This document shows, in pieces, positions 8,950 through 53,043 of a stretch of 63,719 bases of DNA (position 1 is its first letter; each line of letters begins with the position of its first letter). The notes under the pieces were generated by a model. The model worked only from the letters and a program-made list of their open reading frames with translations. It was not told the DNA's origin and did not search any database. This stretch comes from a virus: positions 1 through 63,719 of IMG/VR virus record IMGVR_UViG_3300038441_001768. One strand, written 5' to 3'. The position numbers and the translations under genes are program-made.

Positions 8950-9777
8950 ATGACCACGACCGTCGGGACCGAGCGGGTCCCCCTGGAAGACCTCACACCG
9001 TTCCCTGGCAACGCCCGGCGCGGCGACGTGGACGCGATCCTCGAATCGCTGCGCGCGAACGGGCAGTACAAGCCGCTCACCGTTCGCCGGCACGGCGAGA
9101 CGCTGACGATCCTCGCCGGGAACCACACGTATCTGGCGCTGCTGCGGCACGAGGAGTCCGACCGCGAGGACTGCCGGGACTGGGAGCTGGCCAACGACCG
9201 CCCGTGCCAACTCTGCGTCAACGTGGAGGCGGACGACCCGACAGCCCTCTCCCACCTCATCGAATGCGACGACGCCACCGCCACGCGCATCAACCTGGTG
9301 GACAACAAGGCGGCCGACGACGGTTCCTACGACGACGAGGCGCTGGCCGCGCTGCTCGCCTCGCTGGACGGCGGCCCGGTCGGCACCGGCTACACCGACG
9401 AGGAAGCCGACTCACTGCTGGCGAGGTACGAGGAGGAAGAGGTCGTCGAGTACACCCGCCCGGCAGTCGCCGAGTACAACGACGACCCCGAGGAGCGGAA
9501 GGCCCGGGTGGACCGCCTCGGTGGCGAGAACAGCCAGCCGTACGAGTCGCGCGGTGTGCGGGACATCTTCCTCGCCATGCCCAACGCCGAGGCCGACGAG
9601 CTGGGCCGCTGCATCATGGCGCTGCGCGAGCACTTCGGCGCGATGACGCAGAGCGAGGTCGTGCTGCGGGCGGCCCGGGTGGCCGTCGCGGTCATGGACG
9701 GCGCGGACGCGGGACTGACCCTCGCGGACTGCCTGAGCCGGGGGGAAGCCGTCTACAACCCCGGGGCCGAGGAGTGA
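8950..9777 (+). CDS. ParB/sulfiredoxin-fold protein, first gene of hypermodification operon
   Basis: A 275-residue protein with an N-terminal ParB/Srx-like domain: LEDLTPFPGNARRGDVDAI near residue 12, then a GQYKPLTVRR strand and ILAGNHTYLAL (residues 55-65), the usual G-x-H/R catalytic or nucleotide-binding stretch. The rest is acidic, ending in a helical region. ParB-fold proteins recur in predicted phage DNA-modification loci and may act as CTP/ATP-dependent switches or nucleases; which applies here is not known. Starts after a promoter-like gap and overlaps the next gene by 4 bp. Confidence 0.8.
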   Translation: MTTTVGTERVPLEDLTPFPGNARRGDVDAILESLRANGQYKPLTVRRHGETLTILAGNHTYLALLRHEESDREDCRDWELANDRPCQLCVNVEADDPTALSHLIECDDATATRINLVDNKAADDGSYDDEALAALLASLDGGPVGTGYTDEEADSLLARYEEEEVVEYTRPAVAEYNDDPEERKARVDRLGGENSQPYESRGVRDIFLAMPNAEADELGRCIMALREHFGAMTQSEVVLRAARVAVAVMDGADAGLTLADCLSRGEAVYNPGAEE

Positions 9778-10856
9778 GCGACACACTGACGGCCGGTCTC
9801 GACTTCCGGCTACCGCAGTACCGGCGGGAGGTGTTCCTGCGGTTCTACGAGTGGTCGGTGCGTCACCGCTCGTTCCCTGGGGGAGTGCACTACGCGCTGC
9901 CGCACCTTGCCGACGCACTCGACTGGGACACCGAGCAACGATTCTGGGCGGCGTTCCTCAACGCCAACACGCAGAACCCTGTCACCACGCTGCTGCTCAT
10001 GCAGGCCGCATCGCGCCCCGGCGACGCGGACGGGGCCGTGGAGTTCTGGCGGGGGCACTACCGCGAGCTGGAGTGGGACACCGACCGCCGGTACCACAAG
10101 GCCCGGTTCGCGGACGCGGTGGACGGGTATCGGCGGCTGACCGGCCCGGGGCCGGACGCACAGGCCCGGTACTTCCGGCTGCCGCACGAGTGGGGCGCGT
10201 GGTGGGACGCCGCCGCCGCGATACCGACCATGGGCCGGCTGTCCACCTGGAGCTACCTGGAATACCTGCGCATCCTGGAGTGCGGAGCCCCGGACGCTGA
10301 CACGCTGCTGCTCACGGACATCCCCGGCTCCCGCAGCCACCGCAACGGCCTCGCCCTCGTCGCCGGCCGGGACGAGTGGATCGCTGACAAGCAGCTCGGG
10401 GACCCCGCGTTCGGCTACACCCCGGACGTGCTCAGCGAACTGGCGTCCGTCGGCTACGGTTTGCTGGCCGAGGCGCGACGCCGGGTCCCAGGGGACCGCA
10501 CGGTCGGCTATCTGTCGCTGGAGTCGGCACTGTGCACGTACAAGAGCTGGCACAAACCGAACCGTCGCTACCCCGGCGTCTACAACGACATGCTGCATGA
10601 CCGGCTGGTGCGTGCGGAGAACCGGTTCGGCCGGCGGTTCGGCGTCATCTGGGACGCCCGCCGAGAGGCGCTGCCCGCCCGGCTGCGGCTGGAGGACAAC
10701 CCCGGGGACCCCGGCTGCGTGCCGGTCAAACAGAACTGGTACCGGACCACCGGTCAGGTCATCGGCATGGCGGACGACTGGCCTTGCTTCACCAACGGTT
10801 TCGACCGGTTGGTACGGGACGGGCTGCTCGGCCAGAGGGAGCGTGCGTGGATCTGA
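9774..10856 (+). CDS. aGPT-Pplase-like enzyme (amino acid/amine:hydroxymethyl-base transferase)
   Basis: A 360-residue protein, GTG start overlapping the ParB-like gene. Signature segments of the alpha-glutamyl/putrescinyl thymine pyrophosphorylase family are clear: FYEWSVRHRSFPGG near residue 23, FLNANTQNPVTTLLL near 60, LESALCTYKSWHKPNRRYPG near 250, and a C-terminal VKQNWYRTTGQ. In phages such as SP10, phiW-14, ViI and M6 this family attaches an amino acid or polyamine to an activated (pyrophosphorylated or phosphorylated) 5-hydroxymethyl base in DNA. Here it should act after the kinase and before the PLP enzyme. The acceptor base (U or C) cannot be read from sequence. Confidence 0.82.
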   Translation: MSDTLTAGLDFRLPQYRREVFLRFYEWSVRHRSFPGGVHYALPHLADALDWDTEQRFWAAFLNANTQNPVTTLLLMQAASRPGDADGAVEFWRGHYRELEWDTDRRYHKARFADAVDGYRRLTGPGPDAQARYFRLPHEWGAWWDAAAAIPTMGRLSTWSYLEYLRILECGAPDADTLLLTDIPGSRSHRNGLALVAGRDEWIADKQLGDPAFGYTPDVLSELASVGYGLLAEARRRVPGDRTVGYLSLESALCTYKSWHKPNRRYPGVYNDMLHDRLVRAENRFGRRFGVIWDARREALPARLRLEDNPGDPGCVPVKQNWYRTTGQVIGMADDWPCFTNGFDRLVRDGLLGQRERAWI

Positions 10857-11716
10857 ACTCCTGGCTCAGCCCGGTGGAGAACCGGGGCGGCCGTCTCTAC
10901 AAGCGGGAAGACCTCGCCGCGCTGCCTGTCGGCGTCAACGGCTCCAAGCTGCGCGCCTGCGAGCACCTGATCGGCCGGGCCGCCCGCGCCGGCGCCAAGC
11001 GGGTCATCTCCGCCGCCTCGGTGCTCTCCCCGCAGAGCGCCATGGCCGCCGTCCTCGCACGGCGCCACGGCCTCGGCTGCACGGTCGTCGTCGGCGGCAC
11101 CAAACCCACCACAGCCATCCGGCACCCGTCCATCCGCATGGCCGTGGACCACGGGGCGGGCCTGGAGTTCGCGGCCGTCGACTACAACCCGGCGCTTCAG
11201 TCCTACGCGCGCAGGCTCGCCGCCACCGACCCCGCCGCGTACTGGCTCCAGTACGGCATCACCACCCCACCCGCCGCCACCCGCGAGGAGCTGCTGGACT
11301 TCCACGCGGTCGCCGCCCGGCAGACGGAGAACCTGCCGGACGGGGTGGGGACGCTGGTGGTGCCGTTCGGGTCCGGCAACACGGCGGCCGGTGTGCTCAT
11401 GGGCTTGGCCCAGCGATCGTCGGCCGACCGCCCCCGAAAGACGGTGCTGGTGGGCATCGGCCCGGACCGGAGGGCCTGGCTGGCAGACCGGTTCGCCGCC
11501 ATGGGTCTGGAACTCCCGGCGTACGAGCACCTGGACCTGCACGGCTCCGGATACGCCTCCTACGGCGACAAGATGCCCGGCACCGCCGACGGCATCCGCC
11601 TGCACCCCACCTACGAGGGCAAGGTGGTGCGCTACCTGAACGAGAAGCGACCCGACTGGTGGACCCGCCGGGACGGCACGACGTGCCTGTGGATCGTGGG
11701 AGGACCCATCTCGTGA
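10847..11716 (+). CDS. PLP-dependent enzyme, ACC deaminase/fold-type II family, DNA-modification associated
   Basis: A 289-residue protein, GTG 10847, overlapping the transferase by 10 bp. The PLP lysine lies in GVNGSKLRACEHL near residue 27; the phosphate-binding loop is VPFGSGNTAAGVLMG near 170; YGDKMPG near 230 closes the active site. This fold-type II family includes 1-aminocyclopropane-1-carboxylate deaminase and D-cysteine desulfhydrase. In hypermodification loci such enzymes are proposed to remodel the amino-acid adduct on the base (decarboxylation, elimination or isomerisation). Specificity is inference from context. Confidence 0.82.
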   Translation: MDLNSWLSPVENRGGRLYKREDLAALPVGVNGSKLRACEHLIGRAARAGAKRVISAASVLSPQSAMAAVLARRHGLGCTVVVGGTKPTTAIRHPSIRMAVDHGAGLEFAAVDYNPALQSYARRLAATDPAAYWLQYGITTPPAATREELLDFHAVAARQTENLPDGVGTLVVPFGSGNTAAGVLMGLAQRSSADRPRKTVLVGIGPDRRAWLADRFAAMGLELPAYEHLDLHGSGYASYGDKMPGTADGIRLHPTYEGKVVRYLNEKRPDWWTRRDGTTCLWIVGGPIS

Positions 11717-12288
11717 TACGTGGCCTGCTGTACGTCATCGGCCCGCCGGGGGTGGGCAAGTCCACGCTTGTCCGGGAGCTGCGCACCGGCTGGGACACAG
11801 AGGTGGACCGGCACCACGCCGTCCCCCACACCCGTCTCAACCACCCCGCCACCGGCCGCACCGCCGGACTGGAACTCGGGGTGCCCCGCGAGGACTTCCC
11901 CGGCACCGACGCCCTGGCCATGGACATAGGGCCCCGGGCGCTCCAGTTTCTGTCGGCCAGCTACACGCCCTTCGCCGTGGGGGAGGGCGCGCGGCTGGCC
12001 ACCCGGCCTTTCCTCGGCGGACTGGCGCAGCAGGGCGTGGCGGTCACGGTGGTGGAGCTGATGGCGTCACCGGCGCTGCTGGATCAGCGGTGGCGCGAGC
12101 GCGGGGCGCGACAGAACCCGTCCTGGCGCAAGGGTGCGGCCACCCGGGCGTCCCGCCTGGCCGACTGGGCCGCCGGTGCGCCGGGCGTCCGGCTGCGGTG
12201 CATCGACGTGGAGCAGTACAGCCCGGCGGAGATGGCGGCCGAGGTGCGCGACGTCTTCCCGCCGATAACCCCGGAGGTGAACCGTTGA
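11713..12288 (+). CDS. P-loop kinase, probable hydroxymethyl-base DNA kinase
   Basis: A 191-residue protein, GTG 11713, 4-bp overlap on both sides. Walker A GPPGVGKST near residue 10, and a basic helix region later (QRWRERGARQNPSWRKG near 130) like the lid of small nucleoside or base kinases. By analogy with the 5-hydroxymethyl-uracil DNA kinases of ViI and M6, it would phosphorylate the hydroxymethyl group made by the downstream dioxygenase so that the transferase can displace it. The kinase fold is visible; the substrate is inferred. Confidence 0.78.
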   Translation: MIRGLLYVIGPPGVGKSTLVRELRTGWDTEVDRHHAVPHTRLNHPATGRTAGLELGVPREDFPGTDALAMDIGPRALQFLSASYTPFAVGEGARLATRPFLGGLAQQGVAVTVVELMASPALLDQRWRERGARQNPSWRKGAATRASRLADWAAGAPGVRLRCIDVEQYSPAEMAAEVRDVFPPITPEVNR

Positions 12289-13187
12289 TCTCTATTCGTC
12301 TGCGCTCCCGGATTGGCAAGCAGGAGCTTGAGGAAAAAGCTGGCAAGGTACTCGGGGACGACGCCTACAACGTGAAGCTGACAGGGCCAACCCGGGTGTT
12401 CCTGCCCAACGGGCAACCGCTGTGCGTCTACCTACCCGGCGCGATGAAGGACGTCGTCACCGAGGAGCAGTACGCGATCCTGCACAGCCTGCGACGGACC
12501 ACAACAGGGAACCGGGGCCCCGCCTCGGGCTCCAAGGCCGTTCGTGCGGGCGCGCAGAAACGGCAGTACTTCAAGGCGGTCAGCTCCAGCATCCTCGGGG
12601 CGTTCGACCCCGGGGGCACCTTCAGGTTCTGCCGCCTGACGGCCTGGACCGGCAAGAACCTCCCGGAGTGGGAGGCGCTGCACCCGGCGTTGCAAGCCGT
12701 AGCCGGGGCGATGCAGGAACACGTCCCCGAGCGCTACGCGGCGCAGATGGAGGAGATCGAGCGGACGCACCCGGACTGGGTGGTGCCCGGTACCCCGTTC
12801 ACGACGGTCACCGTCAACAACACCTACCCAACCGGTGTGCACACCGACAAGGGCGACCTGGACAAGGGGTTCAGCACGATCTTCGCGCTCCGTCGGGGCA
12901 CGTACACCGGAGGGACGTTCGTGTTCCCGGAGTTCCGGGTGGGCGTGGACCTTCAGGACGGCGACCTGATCCTGATGGACGCCCATCAGTGGCACGGCAA
13001 CACGGCCATCGTCTGCGCCTGCGGTGAACGACGGACGGCCTACTGCGAGGACTGCGGGGCGGAACGCATCTCGGTCGTCTCGTACATGCGCACCGCGATG
13101 ACCCGGTGCGGTAGCGAGGCCGAGGAGATCGACCGGGCCCGGGAGTACCGCGAGCGCACCAAGGGCGTCCTGCGCGAGACCCGTTAA
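12285..13187 (+). CDS. TET/JBP-type 2-oxoglutarate/Fe(II) dioxygenase
   Basis: A 300-residue protein from TTG 12285, which overlaps the kinase stop and follows GGAGGTGA. Iron ligands H186-T-D188 (PTGVHTDKGD) and distal H237 (HQWHGNT), with an ERISVVSYMR segment near 270 for 2-oxoglutarate binding. Upstream KGFSTIFALRRGTYTGGTFVFPEF matches the TET/JBP core. A cysteine cluster (CACG...CEDC) is inserted between the distal His and the Arg and may bind zinc. Expected reaction: hydroxylation of the 5-methyl group of thymine or 5-methylcytosine in DNA. No cytosine-C5 methyltransferase is visible in the window, which leaves thymine or host-methylated cytosine as substrate. Confidence 0.85.
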   Translation: MISIRLRSRIGKQELEEKAGKVLGDDAYNVKLTGPTRVFLPNGQPLCVYLPGAMKDVVTEEQYAILHSLRRTTTGNRGPASGSKAVRAGAQKRQYFKAVSSSILGAFDPGGTFRFCRLTAWTGKNLPEWEALHPALQAVAGAMQEHVPERYAAQMEEIERTHPDWVVPGTPFTTVTVNNTYPTGVHTDKGDLDKGFSTIFALRRGTYTGGTFVFPEFRVGVDLQDGDLILMDAHQWHGNTAIVCACGERRTAYCEDCGAERISVVSYMRTAMTRCGSEAEEIDRAREYRERTKGVLRETR

Positions 13188-14257: not shown

Positions 14258-14340
14258 CGCGTTTTCCAGGCCGTTCGGCGATTCCCCGGTCCGTGGCTAC
14301 CCTGCCGCCACGATCAAAGACCACGGAACAAGGGGTGTCC

Positions 14341-15420
14341 ATGCGCGTCCTGCTCACCGGGGCGGCCGGGTTCGTCGGCTCGCACGTCCTGCGTCACCTG
14401 CTCGCCCGCACGGACTGGGAGATCGTCTGCCCGGTGTCCTTCCGGCACAAGGGGCTGCCCGCCCGTGTCGCCTCCGCCGTGTGCGACACCGACTGGGGCA
14501 AGCGCGTGGACATCGTCCACTGGGACATGCGCGCCCCGGCGGACCCGCTGACCCTGCACATGTTCGGGGACTGCGACGTCATCATGAACGTCGCCAGCGA
14601 GTCGCACGTGGACCGGTCCATCGCCCACCCCGTCGACTTCGTGCAGAACAACGTCGCCCTGATGCTCCACGTGCTGGAGGTCGCGCGGGAGATCCGGCCG
14701 CGCCTGTTCCTCCAGATGTCCACCGACGAGGTGTACGGTCCGGCGTACGGCGACCACCGGCACACCGAGTGGGAGACGGCCGTGCCGTCCAACCCGTATT
14801 CCGCGAGCAAGGCGGCGCAGGAGTCCATCGCCGTCAGCTACTGGCGGACCTATGACGTGCCCCTCGTCCTCACCAACACGATGAACATCATCGGCGAGAC
14901 GCAGGACCCCGAGAAGTTCCTCCCGATGGTCGTCCGGGGCCTGCGGGACGGCTTGCCGATCACCGTGCACACCGCGCTCGACGGCACGCCCGGTTCACGG
15001 TTCTACCTGCACGCGCGCAACCTCGCCGACGCGTGGCTGTACCTGACGCGCCGGTACACCGAGGCCGAACCGGAGGTGTGGACGCTGGGCGGCGACATGA
15101 TCCGCATCGCCATGGGCCCGGCGCGCTACGGCGACGGGGTCACGCGGCCCGAGCGGTTCCACATCGTCGGCGAGCGCGAGGTGGACAACGTCGAACTGGT
15201 GCGGATGGTCGGGGAGGTCATGGGGCTGTCCGACGACTACGTCCGGGCCCTGGTGCAGCCGGTGTCCTTCCACGCCTCGCGGCCGGGGCACGACCTGCGG
15301 TACGCCCTGGACGGCTCGCGGATGGCGGCCTTCGGCTGGACGCCTCCGGTGTCCCTGGAGAAGTCGCTGGAGACCACCGTGCGCTGGTCGCTGGACAACC
15401 CCGAGTGGCTGGCCCTGTGA
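14341..15420 (+). CDS. NAD-dependent epimerase/dehydratase (extended SDR)
   Basis: A 359-residue Rossmann protein; ATG 14341 chosen because the NAD motif follows at once (TGAAGFVGSHV, residues 6-16). STDEVYG near 130 and the catalytic Y-x-x-x-K in NPYSASK near 157 are typical of nucleotide-sugar 4,6-dehydratases such as RmlB. The likely substrate is an NDP-sugar. A downstream glycosyltransferase (51955) could use the product, for example to decorate virions or modified DNA; that link is inference. Preceded by GGCGATTC-N-TACCCT, a promoter-like motif also seen before the portal and capsid genes. Confidence 0.85.
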   Translation: MRVLLTGAAGFVGSHVLRHLLARTDWEIVCPVSFRHKGLPARVASAVCDTDWGKRVDIVHWDMRAPADPLTLHMFGDCDVIMNVASESHVDRSIAHPVDFVQNNVALMLHVLEVAREIRPRLFLQMSTDEVYGPAYGDHRHTEWETAVPSNPYSASKAAQESIAVSYWRTYDVPLVLTNTMNIIGETQDPEKFLPMVVRGLRDGLPITVHTALDGTPGSRFYLHARNLADAWLYLTRRYTEAEPEVWTLGGDMIRIAMGPARYGDGVTRPERFHIVGEREVDNVELVRMVGEVMGLSDDYVRALVQPVSFHASRPGHDLRYALDGSRMAAFGWTPPVSLEKSLETTVRWSLDNPEWLAL

Positions 15421-16409: not shown

Positions 16410-17662
<1,253 letters not shown>

Positions 17663-17689
17663 ACTCGCCGCCGTCTGCATTGCACCACC

Positions 17690-17726
17690 GAGGCCCGCAC
17701 CGACACCCCCGTCCGGTGCGGGCCTC
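17690..17726 (+). terminator. Hairpin terminator before terL
   Basis: A 13-bp stem GAGGCCCGCACCG / CGGTGCGGGCCTC with an 11-nt loop. A TAGACT -10-like hexamer lies at 17660-17665, so a short RNA of about 55 nt between the two cannot be excluded. Confidence 0.7.
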
Positions 17727-17765
17727 GTCGTGCTCCGGAAACCGCGCGCCGCCCGGCAGCCGACA

Positions 17766-19970
17766 ATGGCGGGCATGGCGGACACGAGGCTGAGGAGCCG
17801 CGCGGCGGAGAAGCTGCTCATGCACGCGCGGACGCTGACGGAGCCGCGCTGGACTCCGCTGCCCCACCAGGTCCCGCCGCCCGGCGACTGGTACGGATGG
17901 CTGCTGCTGGCCGGGCGAGGCGCCGGGAAGACCGACGCGTGCGCGCGGTACGTCCACGAGCACGTCATGGGCCCGCCGTGCCTGCCCGGTCCCATCCCGC
18001 ACTGGATCGGGATCATCGCGCCCACCCTCGGCGACGCGGCGACGTCCTGCTACGCCGGCCCGTCCGGCCTGCGGGTGCACAGCCCCGAGGCGAAGATGAC
18101 GACCCGCCAGGGCGGCACGATCATCAAGTGGCCCAACGGTAGCGAGGCCAAGGTGTTCGGCGCGCACAGCCCGGAGGACATCGAGCGCCTGCGGTCCGGC
18201 GGTAACCGGTGCGTGGCCGAGGGCACCCTGGTGCGCACCGAGTACGGAGAGAGACCCATCGAGACCATCCGGCCCGGGGACCGCGTGTGGACGCGCAACG
18301 GCCTGCGAGAGGTTCTGGCGGCCTGGGACAACGGCATCAAGGACGTCGTGCGCTACGACCACGACGCGGGGTCCACGTGGCTCACGCCGGATCACAAGGT
18401 GGCGACGGCCGACGGCTGGAAGCCGGTTTCGCTCGTTCAGCCAACGGAGACAATCTTTACATGGGGAAATACGGGGATTCGATACGGTACGACGGCGTCA
18501 CCTGGCATGCAGGCCCGGACGACTACTACCGGAGCACGCGGCACGGACTGCTGCACCGGTACATGTACGCGCGGGAGGTCGGTCCGATCCCCGCAGGCAT
18601 GCAAGTGCACCACCGCAACCACAACAAGCGGGACAACCGGGTCAGCAACTTCGTGCTGCTCGCGCCGGGCCAGCATTGGCACGAGCACGGCGAGGAGCGC
18701 GGAGAGGACTGGCACCGTAAGGGCGGCCGGGCAACCTGGGACCGCGCGGAATACCGGGACTTCACCTGTCAGCGGTGCGGCGCAGTCTTCCGCTCCCGAG
18801 GGACGACCGGAGCGCGGTACTGCCCCGGAGCCTGCCGGGAGGCTGTTGCTCCGTCACGAGCACGGGAGCAGCGGGTGTGCGGCGTGTGCGGCGACGCGTT
18901 CGAGTGCCAGCGCCGGAACCCGACCCGCACTTGTTCGCGCCGGTGCACTTCGGTCCTCGCGTACCAGTCGCGCCGTGCGCGTGTACGACCTGACGATTGA
19001 ACACGATCACGAGTTCTTCGCGGGCGGCCTGCTCGTCTCCAACTGCCTTGCGTGGCTGGAGGAGCTGGCCGCGTGGCGCTACCTGGACGACACCTGGGAC
19101 CAGATGCGGTTCGGCCTACGCGTCGGCCCACGCCCGCACTGGATCGCCTCCACCACCCCCAAGCCCCGGGCCCTGATCAAGAAACTCGCGGCCGGCGGTG
19201 TGGGCAACGTCGTGCGCACGCACGCGTCCATGTACGACAACCCCCACCTGCCCGAAGACATCCGGGCCGCGCTGGAGGACGCCTATGCGGGCACGCAGAT
19301 CGGTCGGCAGGAACTCCACGCGGAGATCATCGACGCCGACGAGAACGCGCTGTGGAACCGCGCGATGATCGACGACCACCGGGTGCGCCCGAGCGACCTG
19401 CCCGACCTCGCACGGATCTCCGTCGGGGTGGACCCGTCGGGCGGCCGGGGCGAACAGGGCATCGTCGTCGTCGGCAAGGCGGTGCAGGAGCACGTGCGGG
19501 CCGACGGCCGCCCGACGCAGCTCGCGCACGGCTACGTCCTCGCCGACAGGTCGTGCCACCTCTCCCCGGACGGCTGGGGCCGCCGCGCGGTGCAGGCCGC
19601 CGTCGACCACGAGGCGGACGACATCTGCGTGGAGGTCAACTTCGGCGGGGACATGGCCGTCAACACGATCCGCGCGGCGGCCGACGCCCTGGGCGTGCGC
19701 ATCCCCATCAAGGTCGTGCGGGCGACGAGGGGGAAGAAGGTCCGCGCGGAGCCGGTCAGCGCCCTTTCGGAGCAGGGCCGGTGGCACATGGTGGGGGAGC
19801 ACCCGGAGCTGGAAGACCAGATGTGCACCTGGTACGACGAGCTGGACTGGAGTCCGGACCGTCTGGACGCGATGGTCTGGCCGGCCTGGCACCAGCGGAT
19901 CGTGAAGGCGACCATGACCGGCATTGCCGTGGCCGGCGGTCTGTCCTCGGCGACACGCTCCATCGGGTGA
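17766..19970 (+). CDS. terL: Large terminase subunit, intein-containing
   Basis: A 734-residue precursor; 456 residues after removal of the 278-residue intein. Walker A GRGAGKT (residues 50-56); the intein (149-426) sits just before the Walker B-like CLAWLEELAAW; a C-terminal RNase H-fold nuclease has acidic residues in SVGVDPSGG, CVEVNFGGD and RLDAMVWP. It is the motor that packages DNA into the prohead. ATG 17766 is chosen over upstream codons because the terminator hairpin precedes it. The middle of the intein, read in this frame, is an odd Thr/Ser/Arg-rich stretch because another gene occupies a different frame there. Confidence 0.92.
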   Translation: MAGMADTRLRSRAAEKLLMHARTLTEPRWTPLPHQVPPPGDWYGWLLLAGRGAGKTDACARYVHEHVMGPPCLPGPIPHWIGIIAPTLGDAATSCYAGPSGLRVHSPEAKMTTRQGGTIIKWPNGSEAKVFGAHSPEDIERLRSGGNRCVAEGTLVRTEYGERPIETIRPGDRVWTRNGLREVLAAWDNGIKDVVRYDHDAGSTWLTPDHKVATADGWKPVSLVQPTETIFTWGNTGIRYGTTASPGMQARTTTTGARGTDCCTGTCTRGRSVRSPQACKCTTATTTSGTTGSATSCCSRRASIGTSTARSAERTGTVRAAGQPGTARNTGTSPVSGAAQSSAPEGRPERGTAPEPAGRLLLRHEHGSSGCAACAATRSSASAGTRPALVRAGALRSSRTSRAVRVYDLTIEHDHEFFAGGLLVSNCLAWLEELAAWRYLDDTWDQMRFGLRVGPRPHWIASTTPKPRALIKKLAAGGVGNVVRTHASMYDNPHLPEDIRAALEDAYAGTQIGRQELHAEIIDADENALWNRAMIDDHRVRPSDLPDLARISVGVDPSGGRGEQGIVVVGKAVQEHVRADGRPTQLAHGYVLADRSCHLSPDGWGRRAVQAAVDHEADDICVEVNFGGDMAVNTIRAAADALGVRIPIKVVRATRGKKVRAEPVSALSEQGRWHMVGEHPELEDQMCTWYDELDWSPDRLDAMVWPAWHQRIVKATMTGIAVAGGLSSATRSIG
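18210..19043 (+). mobile_element. Class 1 intein in TerL hosting an out-of-frame HNH gene
   Basis: Splicing blocks in the TerL frame: block A from Cys (CVAEGTLVRTEYGERPIETI, then RPGDRVW), block B WLTPDHKVATADGWK, block F RVYDLTIEHDHEFFAGG, end LLVSN before Cys+1. The usual penultimate His is Ser. Between block B and block F, about 540 nt encode a normal HNH protein only in the other frame, while the TerL frame stays open by composition. The splicing domain is therefore continuous with a long non-family filler. Confidence 0.85.
18461..19000 (+). CDS. HNH homing endonuclease nested out of frame in the terL intein
   Basis: A 179-residue protein in the frame one base before the terL codons. ATG 18461 follows GGAGA by 10 nt, so it can start independently. 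HNH signature VHHRNHNKRDNRVSNFVLL (H50, H51, N59, N63). Two later zinc-finger-like Cys sets (CQRC...CPGAC and CGVC...CSRRC). It is a typical DNA-cutting homing enzyme that would mobilise the intein. The last 40 bases overlap the intein block F. Known HNH family; the nested arrangement is what is unusual. Confidence 0.85.
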   Translation: MGKYGDSIRYDGVTWHAGPDDYYRSTRHGLLHRYMYAREVGPIPAGMQVHHRNHNKRDNRVSNFVLLAPGQHWHEHGEERGEDWHRKGGRATWDRAEYRDFTCQRCGAVFRSRGTTGARYCPGACREAVAPSRAREQRVCGVCGDAFECQRRNPTRTCSRRCTSVLAYQSRRARVRPDD

Positions 19971-51954: not shown

Positions 51955-53043
51955 ATGCGAGTCGTCGTCTATCCGGCGGACACGGGCGGGTGCGGGCACT
52001 TCCGGCTCATCTGGCCGGCGGAGCTGCTGCGGGCGGCCGGCCACGACGTGGAGATCCGCCCGCCCGCCGACCGTGGGCTGAAGCTGAAGATCGGCGCGGA
52101 TGACCGGGTGGAAGACGTGCTGGACGTGGATGGCGTGGACGTCCTCGTCTTCCAGCGCCTCACCCACCAGTGGATGGCGGAGGCGGTGCCGCTGCTGCGC
52201 GCCAAGGGCATCGCCGTGGTGGTGGACGTGGACGACGACCTGGCAGCCGTCCACCCGCGTAACCCGGCGTACGAGTCGATGCATCCCCGCTTCGCGGGGA
52301 GGGTCGACCCGCGCACGCGGCAGGTCCGGCGGCACTCGTGGCAGCACCTTGCCGCCGCGTGCCGTGATGCCACGCTGGTCACCGTGTCCACCCCGGCGCT
52401 GCTGGAGCGCTACGCCCGGCACGGCCGGGGGCATGTGATCCACAACCACCTGCCGGACAGCTACTACGGCGTGCCCCGCGTCGATCGCGACACCATCGGC
52501 TGGCCCGCCGCGCTCGCCTCCCACCCGGACGACCCGGCCGTCCTCGGCGGCGCCGTCGCGCGTCTCGTCTCCGAGGGCGGGGACTTCCGCGTCGTCGGCG
52601 ACCCGACCGGGGTGGGCGTGGCGTTCGGCCTGTTCCACGACCCGCAGGGGCGCACCGGTGTGGATGTGCACGGCTGGCCGGCCGCCGTGGCGGGGGACGT
52701 CGGGGTCGGCATCGCCCCGCTGGCGGACACCGCGTTCAACCGGGCCAAGTCGTGGCTCAAGCCGCTGGAGCTGTCGGCCCTCGGCATACCGTGGGTGGCC
52801 TCGCCCCGTGCGGAGTACGTGCGGCTGCACGCACGGGGCGCCGGGGTCCTCGCCGACACGCCGCGCCGGTGGTACCGGGAGCTGCGGCGGCTGACCGGCT
52901 CGGCGGCCCTGCGGGCGGAGCGGGCGGAGGCCGGCCGGGAGGTGGCCGAGGGCCTGCGGCTGTCGGCGAACGCGTGGCGGTGGGCCGAGGCGTGGGCGCG
53001 GGCGCGTGACGTGCAGGATGCGCGCGGCGTGCACGCGGCGTAA
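51955..53043 (+). CDS. Glycosyltransferase, GT-B fold
   Basis: A 362-residue protein, ATG 51955. N-terminal Rossmann half (VVVYPADTGGCGHFRLIWPAELLRAAGHDVEI, DVLVFQRL), a switch (VDVDDDLAAVHPRNPAYE), VTVSTPALLERYA near 145, and a C-terminal half with GVGIAPLADTAFNRAKSWLKPLELSALGIPWVAS, the typical sugar-nucleotide end of family 4-like enzymes. Substrate unknown: virion protein, host wall or modified DNA base. Last gene of the rightward late region. Confidence 0.82.
   Translation: MRVVVYPADTGGCGHFRLIWPAELLRAAGHDVEIRPPADRGLKLKIGADDRVEDVLDVDGVDVLVFQRLTHQWMAEAVPLLRAKGIAVVVDVDDDLAAVHPRNPAYESMHPRFAGRVDPRTRQVRRHSWQHLAAACRDATLVTVSTPALLERYARHGRGHVIHNHLPDSYYGVPRVDRDTIGWPAALASHPDDPAVLGGAVARLVSEGGDFRVVGDPTGVGVAFGLFHDPQGRTGVDVHGWPAAVAGDVGVGIAPLADTAFNRAKSWLKPLELSALGIPWVASPRAEYVRLHARGAGVLADTPRRWYRELRRLTGSAALRAERAEAGREVAEGLRLSANAWRWAEAWARARDVQDARGVHAA

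Follow-up and report, generated by a model that had tools for sequence, protein, structure and literature searches.

A five-gene TET/JBP operon of a soil actinobacterial virus as a probable route to thymidine hypermodification in DNA

Phage ViI hypermodifies thymidine using a hydroxymethylase specific for deoxyuridine monophosphate (dUMP), a kinase (gp67), an amino acid:DNA transferase (ADDT; gp247), and a pyridoxal phosphate (PLP) enzyme (gp226). Systems that bring a TET/JBP dioxygenase to such chemistry are said to have been predicted by Iyer in 2013. In Rhodococcus phage Tonitrus, a five-gene thymidine hypermodification set that contains a TET protein has already been reported (PMC11955845), so the locus described here is less new than a first, sequence-only reading of it had made out. 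This locus lies in virus record IMGVR_UViG_3300038441_001768, of which positions 1 to 63,719 (the window) were analyzed. Five genes at 8950–13187, encoding a ParB-fold protein, an ADDT, a PLP enzyme, a P-loop kinase, and a TET/JBP dioxygenase, form a coupled operon that probably specifies a post-replicative thymidine hypermodification pathway, with ViI chemistry and the TET/JBP enzyme at its head.

The window comes from a soil actinobacterial virus and has a guanine-plus-cytosine content of 71%. Because portal, capsid, tape measure, integrase, and ParA genes are all found in it, and because relatives sit in the genomes of Streptomyces africanus and Actinomadura rayongensis, the likely source is a temperate phage that infects a streptomycete or a related host. 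The extent of the operon and the overlaps of 4–10 base pairs (bp) claimed for it were confirmed: successive genes overlap by 4, 10, 4, and 4 bp (Table 1), every internal start is preceded by a GA-rich stretch resembling a ribosome site, and a terminase-small-like gene begins 21 bp after the TET gene. All five genes are intact in a relative (L014), where ratios of nonsynonymous to synonymous substitution (dN/dS) of 0.16–0.29 indicate purifying selection, and the five-gene set was found again in 21 contig clusters (clustered at 90% identity). Thus, the operon is not a chance arrangement. At the nucleotide level, megablast found no match to the region among 50,697 phage records, and with sensitive blastn no single record aligned to more than 22% of the operon. 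At the protein level, four of the five products exceed curated Pfam cut-offs, and the five families that the sequence-only reading had named are supported.

Table 1. Genes of the operon in the window and the C5-cytosine methyltransferase gene of an overlapping contig
Feature	Position	Strand	Start codon	Length (amino acids)	Remarks
ParB-fold DNA-binding-like protein	8950..9777	+	ATG	275	
ADDT (amino acid:DNA transferase, aGPT-Pplase2)	9774..10856	+	GTG	360	ViI gp247 type
Fold-type II PLP enzyme	10847..11716	+	GTG	289	ViI gp226 type
P-loop kinase	11713..12288	+	GTG	191	proposed 5-hydroxymethyl-pyrimidine DNA kinase
TET/JBP 2-oxoglutarate (2OG)-Fe(II) dioxygenase	12285..13187	+	TTG	300	
C5-cytosine methyltransferase	L107 12316-13335, contig IMGVR_UViG_3300028812_000003				PF00145 1e-13; motifs PCPP, EQV variant

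Judged by their sequences, the window ADDT and PLP enzyme group with ViI gp247 and gp226 rather than with their M6 counterparts, gp51 and gp52. The ADDT scores 42.3 bits against PF18724 (curated cut-off 26.2) and matches a single PHROG, phrog_3271 (2e-77), to which gp247 belongs, whereas M6 gp51 falls in phrog_6364. The PLP enzyme scores 50.7 bits against PF00291 (curated cut-off 35), matches phrog_3650 (1e-72, holding gp226) far better than phrog_7093 (3e-10, holding M6 gp52), and retains the PLP-lysine motif NGSKLR and the loop GSGNTAAG. Profiles of both enzymes were built from environmental and actinophage loci, with the ViI and M6 proteins left out and ViI gene numbers matched through the orf numbers in the notes of the ViI record. 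The ADDT profile scored gp247 at 172 bits and M6 gp51 at 4.6 bits, and the PLP profile scored gp226 at 286 bits and M6 gp52 at 30 bits. When the PDB was searched by sequence, neither the ADDT nor the TET protein had a relative there, and both were matched by fold comparison. The AlphaFold2 (AF2) model of the ADDT, with a predicted local distance difference test score (pLDDT) of 89.2, matches 8z2m, the PUGT of phage PaMx11 (Z 17.6, root-mean-square deviation [rmsd] 3.2, 251 residues), followed by DNA glycosylases at Z 8.8 and below. The deposited name of 8z2m, 5-phosphomethyl-deoxyuridine (dU) glycinyltransferase, gives 5-phosphomethyl-dU as the substrate. The ADDT was not found in plasmids.

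The TET protein scores 64.6 bits (8e-18) against PF12851 (Tet_JBP; curated cut-off 34.9). Its AF2 model, built on 39 sequences (mean pLDDT 91.8), matches TET2 (Z 20.9, rmsd 3.5, 262 residues), CMD1 (18.9), NgTET1 (18.5), and CcTet (17.6), whereas AlkB-type enzymes reach a Z of about 14 or below. His186-x-Asp188 and His237 (the HxD...H iron triad) and Arg261 (the 2OG arginine), whose roles are assigned by motif, are invariant in the 39 sequences. We infer that the window TET would oxidize a pyrimidine within DNA at its 5-methyl group. Two distant TET subfamilies occupy this slot, the window type and a type found in phage Prince (L032, L106). The sequence-only reading had proposed profile searches as a check, and by profile and fold the 9774 product is an ADDT and the 12285 product a TET/JBP enzyme. 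The kinase matches PF18751 (Ploopntkinase3) at 88.9 bits (4e-25; curated cut-off 27) and phrog_800 (4e-13), and its direct match to ViI gp67 is weak (10.8 bits).

The case for thymine as the target comes from a census in which viral contigs were searched with the ADDT alone. Among the 27 loci recovered, 19 have a TET, five have a thymidylate-synthase-like (dUMP-type) hydroxymethylase, three have neither, and none has both. Over whole records, a hydroxymethylase occurs in only five, none of them with a TET, and no ThyX was found anywhere in the records searched. The hydroxymethylases of the slot keep Asn at the dUMP/uracil-recognition position, as in ViI and M6 (a position assigned from the motif, by reference to the residue known in thymidylate synthase). 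Neither PF00303 nor PF02511 was detected in the window or in an overlapping contig of 76.5 kilobases (kb), so the dUMP hydroxymethylase that marks the ViI type is missing there. On the simplest reading of these sequences, TET takes the place of the hydroxymethylase, and both would supply 5-hydroxymethyluracil in DNA. Because the two enzymes replace one another beside the same ADDT–PLP–kinase block, the target is likely to be thymine. The sequence-only reading had proposed oxidation of a 5-methyl pyrimidine in DNA; oxidation on DNA is supported, and the replacement speaks for thymine rather than 5-methylcytosine as that pyrimidine.

The proposed pathway would run in the order that had been read from the sequence: dioxygenase, kinase, transferase, and PLP enzyme. 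The TET/JBP enzyme, probably aided by the ParB-fold protein, would turn selected thymines of the DNA into 5-hydroxymethyluracil by hydroxylating their methyl group, and the kinase would phosphorylate the new hydroxyl to give 5-phosphomethyluracil. The ADDT would then put an amino acid in place of the phosphate, with serine, joined via its side-chain oxygen as happens in ViI, the likeliest choice, and the PLP enzyme, a proposed decarboxylase of the attached amino acid, would leave a positively charged aminoalkoxy group. The most likely final product would be 5-(2-aminoethoxy)methyl-dU, although by analogy with ViI we put serine and this particular base at roughly even chances. DNA modified in this way would withstand restriction or other defences aimed at DNA, a protective function that, like each of the reactions, we infer. 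The earlier suggestion that the transferase adds an amine or amino acid, which the PLP enzyme remodels, is better taken in its second form: since the transferase resembles gp247 in kind and the PLP enzyme resembles gp226, an amino acid followed by decarboxylation fits better than an amine.

Several observations weigh against this pathway, some of them concerning the target base. The same virus carries a C5-cytosine methyltransferase about 1.2 kb past the window end, on a contig whose overlap with the window is 100% identical; the closest relative (G002) has a copy that is 79% identical. According to PMC12730594, citing Burke 2021, characterized phage TETs act on 5-methylcytosine and are paired with C5-methyltransferases. 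Asp191, the base-contact position three residues after the iron Asp (Asn in the Prince-type subfamily), was tried as a marker and proved uninformative, failing to tell thymine from 5-methylcytosine. In a cytosine version of the pathway, the methyltransferase would make 5-methylcytosine, TET would convert it to 5-hydroxymethylcytosine, and the kinase, ADDT, and PLP enzyme would add an amino-alkyl group to the latter. TAGT glycosyltransferases (PF20691) that adjoin some TETs of the same subfamily (L071 7222–7998; weaker in L095 6804–7793) also speak for this version. We nevertheless regard it as distinctly unlikely. C5-methyltransferases occur in 6 of 37 records (one below cut-off), one of which is of the hydroxymethylase type, and were not found in most TET-type records, including contigs of 76–101 kb as well as the complete genomes of Prince and Tonitrus. 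Because they are so scattered, the methyltransferase is not a fixed partner; a profile of these enzymes found none in the census loci (flanks up to 8 kb), and the ADDT–PLP–kinase block also stands beside the dUMP-type hydroxymethylase. No C5-methyltransferase was found in the L071 record. No TET-associated glycosyltransferase was found among the operon genes or in the next gene downstream, and a glycosyltransferase of another family lies at 51955–53043 of the window.

Other observations concern the final base. The solved-structure relatives of the PLP enzyme are D-cysteine desulfhydrase and 1-aminocyclopropane-1-carboxylate (ACC) deaminase, with no decarboxylases among them, and the enzyme is about 30% identical to gp226 and lacks its N-terminal extension and middle insertion. 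Serine specificity rests on the relatedness of the ADDT to gp247, at 26% identity, and the ViI chemistry behind the pathway is taken as Lee reportedly described it in 2018 and 2022. Some relatives, such as the complete phage Prince, have a window-type ADDT and lack the PLP enzyme. These points would suit a thymine base that has yet to be described, made with another amino acid or through elimination, deamination, or exchange at the PLP step rather than decarboxylation. Such an outcome is possible but unlikely, as the ADDT belongs with gp247 and, together with it, the PLP enzyme with gp226, and as in TET loci the PLP enzyme accompanies window-type and not M6-type ADDT. The sequence-only reading had suggested that the final base could be new; the known ViI base is the simplest prediction, and a new one the less likely outcome.

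The finishing enzymes are exchanged as cassettes. The DNA of an S. africanus locus (L040) matches the window at 84–85% identity as far as 9746 and from 11725 onward; in the stretch separating these positions, no similarity was detected. Exactly the ADDT and PLP enzyme are replaced, by an M6-type ADDT (phrog_6364) and a flavin adenine dinucleotide (FAD) enzyme (PF01266) that is related over its full length to solved flavin-dependent lyases (E 2e-4), while ParB, kinase, and TET are kept at 84–86% protein identity to the window. The distribution of the two cassettes over the TET tree requires eight switches, and well-supported branches force at least six gains or losses of either cassette label. 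Such a pattern is what would be expected if exchangeable finishing enzymes worked on one early intermediate in common. The related operon, with its M6-type ADDT and flavin enzyme, belongs to a cultured strain, S. africanus NRRL B-24243 (L040/L115, 92.7-kb contig NZ_MUKA01000058), and its cassette would be expected to yield 5-aminomethyl-dU. At two other loci, a radical S-adenosylmethionine (SAM)-SPASM protein adjoins ParB and TET (L055 6826–7998; L098 6820–7998) and possibly represents a third kind of finishing step; no ADDT or kinase was found in either, and no radical SAM protein in the window or overlapping contig. In one clade of TET operons, low-molecular-weight phosphatase-like (L066 6028–6519) and weak amidoligase-like (L070 5203–6081) proteins lie between ADDT and kinase.

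The ParB-fold protein (phrog_723, 8e-40; no Pfam match) occurs in 51 of the 56 clusters with a TET and in none of the eight that have ADDT, PLP enzyme, and kinase but no TET (Fisher p ~3e-7, computed on 50 of 55 TET clusters and not corrected for relatedness). Because it tracks TET loci, and because the hydroxymethylase route needs no such step, ParB may be a targeting or loading partner that chooses the sites of oxidation on DNA. Its family is widespread, however, with members in 333 phage records, many of which lack TET. Nor does family alone secure the role of the kinase in the operon, because relatives adjoin terminase in hundreds of mycobacteriophages; the label of phrog_800 in PHROGs is likewise terminase small subunit. 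Kinase and ParB might thus serve packaging or partition, leaving ADDT, PLP enzyme, and TET as the modification unit. We judge this highly improbable, as both proteins stay with TET through the cassette swap, the kinase is present in every ADDT cluster of the census, and phrog_800 also holds M6 gp54, which adjoins M6 gp51–53. In Mycobacterium phage AlanGrant (L005 1–5796), a PLP enzyme 47% identical to that of the window and a kinase adjoin a ParB fused to a methyltransferase-like domain; no TET or ADDT was found in that genome. We give low credence to the wider prospect of a base not yet described (a remodelled amino acid on hydroxymethyluracil or an amino-alkylated hydroxymethylcytosine), together with ParB-guided TET sites and cassette exchange between related phages that alters the base.

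Elsewhere in the window, a single frame of 1854 amino acids at 201–5765 matches primase-helicase and DNA polymerase, and an intein-like insertion splits its Walker A motif (GSNGK / ... THN / ST, with slashes at the junctions). The terminase large subunit (17523–19970) also carries an intein-like insertion, from CVAEGTLVR to VSN/C. A protein resembling deoxythymidine diphosphate (dTDP)-glucose dehydratase is encoded at 14293–15420 and turns up again close to roughly half of the most closely related TET operons. It was considered as a sixth step and is not counted in the pathway, because it lies beyond the terminase-small-like gene and occurs in fewer loci (21, against 42 for that gene).

If the proposed pathway is right, phages arrive at ViI-like decoration of thymine by two distinct opening steps, one using a nucleotide-pool enzyme and the other a TET acting on DNA, both standing beside the same downstream enzymes, and the use of thymine by a prokaryotic TET becomes directly testable. 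It would also offer a means of attaching an amine handle to T in ordinary DNA while leaving nucleotide pools as they are, and repeated cassette exchange would alter the final base, as expected under pressure from modification-sensing host defences.

Compared with ViI, the window shares the ADDT and PLP families and a P-loop kinase, but it has TET/JBP and ParB in place of the hydroxymethylase, its oxidation would follow replication, and its genes form one tight operon; lacking a dUMP hydroxymethylase, it is not counted as a ViI-type member. Glutamicibacter phage Montesquieu has ADDT (46%), PLP enzyme (38%), and kinase in window order, with a hydroxymethylase and aGPT-Pplase1 where the window has TET and ParB. 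Pseudomonas phages M6 and PaMx11 follow the same overall logic, and the PaMx11 PUGT shares its fold with the window ADDT, but they use glycine-type ADDT, radical SAM or flavin enzymes, and the hydroxymethylase route. The phage TET/C5-methyltransferase/glycosyltransferase systems of Burke 2021, as PMC12730594 portrays them, likewise employ TET/JBP on DNA, and the window virus also has a C5-methyltransferase; the window operon differs from them in having kinase, ADDT, and PLP enzyme and no glycosyltransferase. In Mycobacterium cluster B phages (for example, Prince and Zemanar), ParB, a "thymidine hydroxylase," ADDT (55% identical), and kinase are genes 1–4, but the TET is of a distant subfamily, the gene order is different, and no PLP enzyme was found in the Prince genome. 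Tonitrus clusters ParB, a Tet-like protein, aGPT-Pplase2, and kinase as the window does, but its ADDT is of the M6 type, its TET falls in the other phage subfamily, a further gene has a weak Rossmann-type (ApbA-like) match, and no PLP enzyme was found in its genome. The exact set of the window occurs in no isolate record of the phage collection searched. What is specific here is the ViI-type ADDT–PLP pair under a TET head, the replacement of the hydroxymethylase by TET, and the exchange of finishing cassettes.

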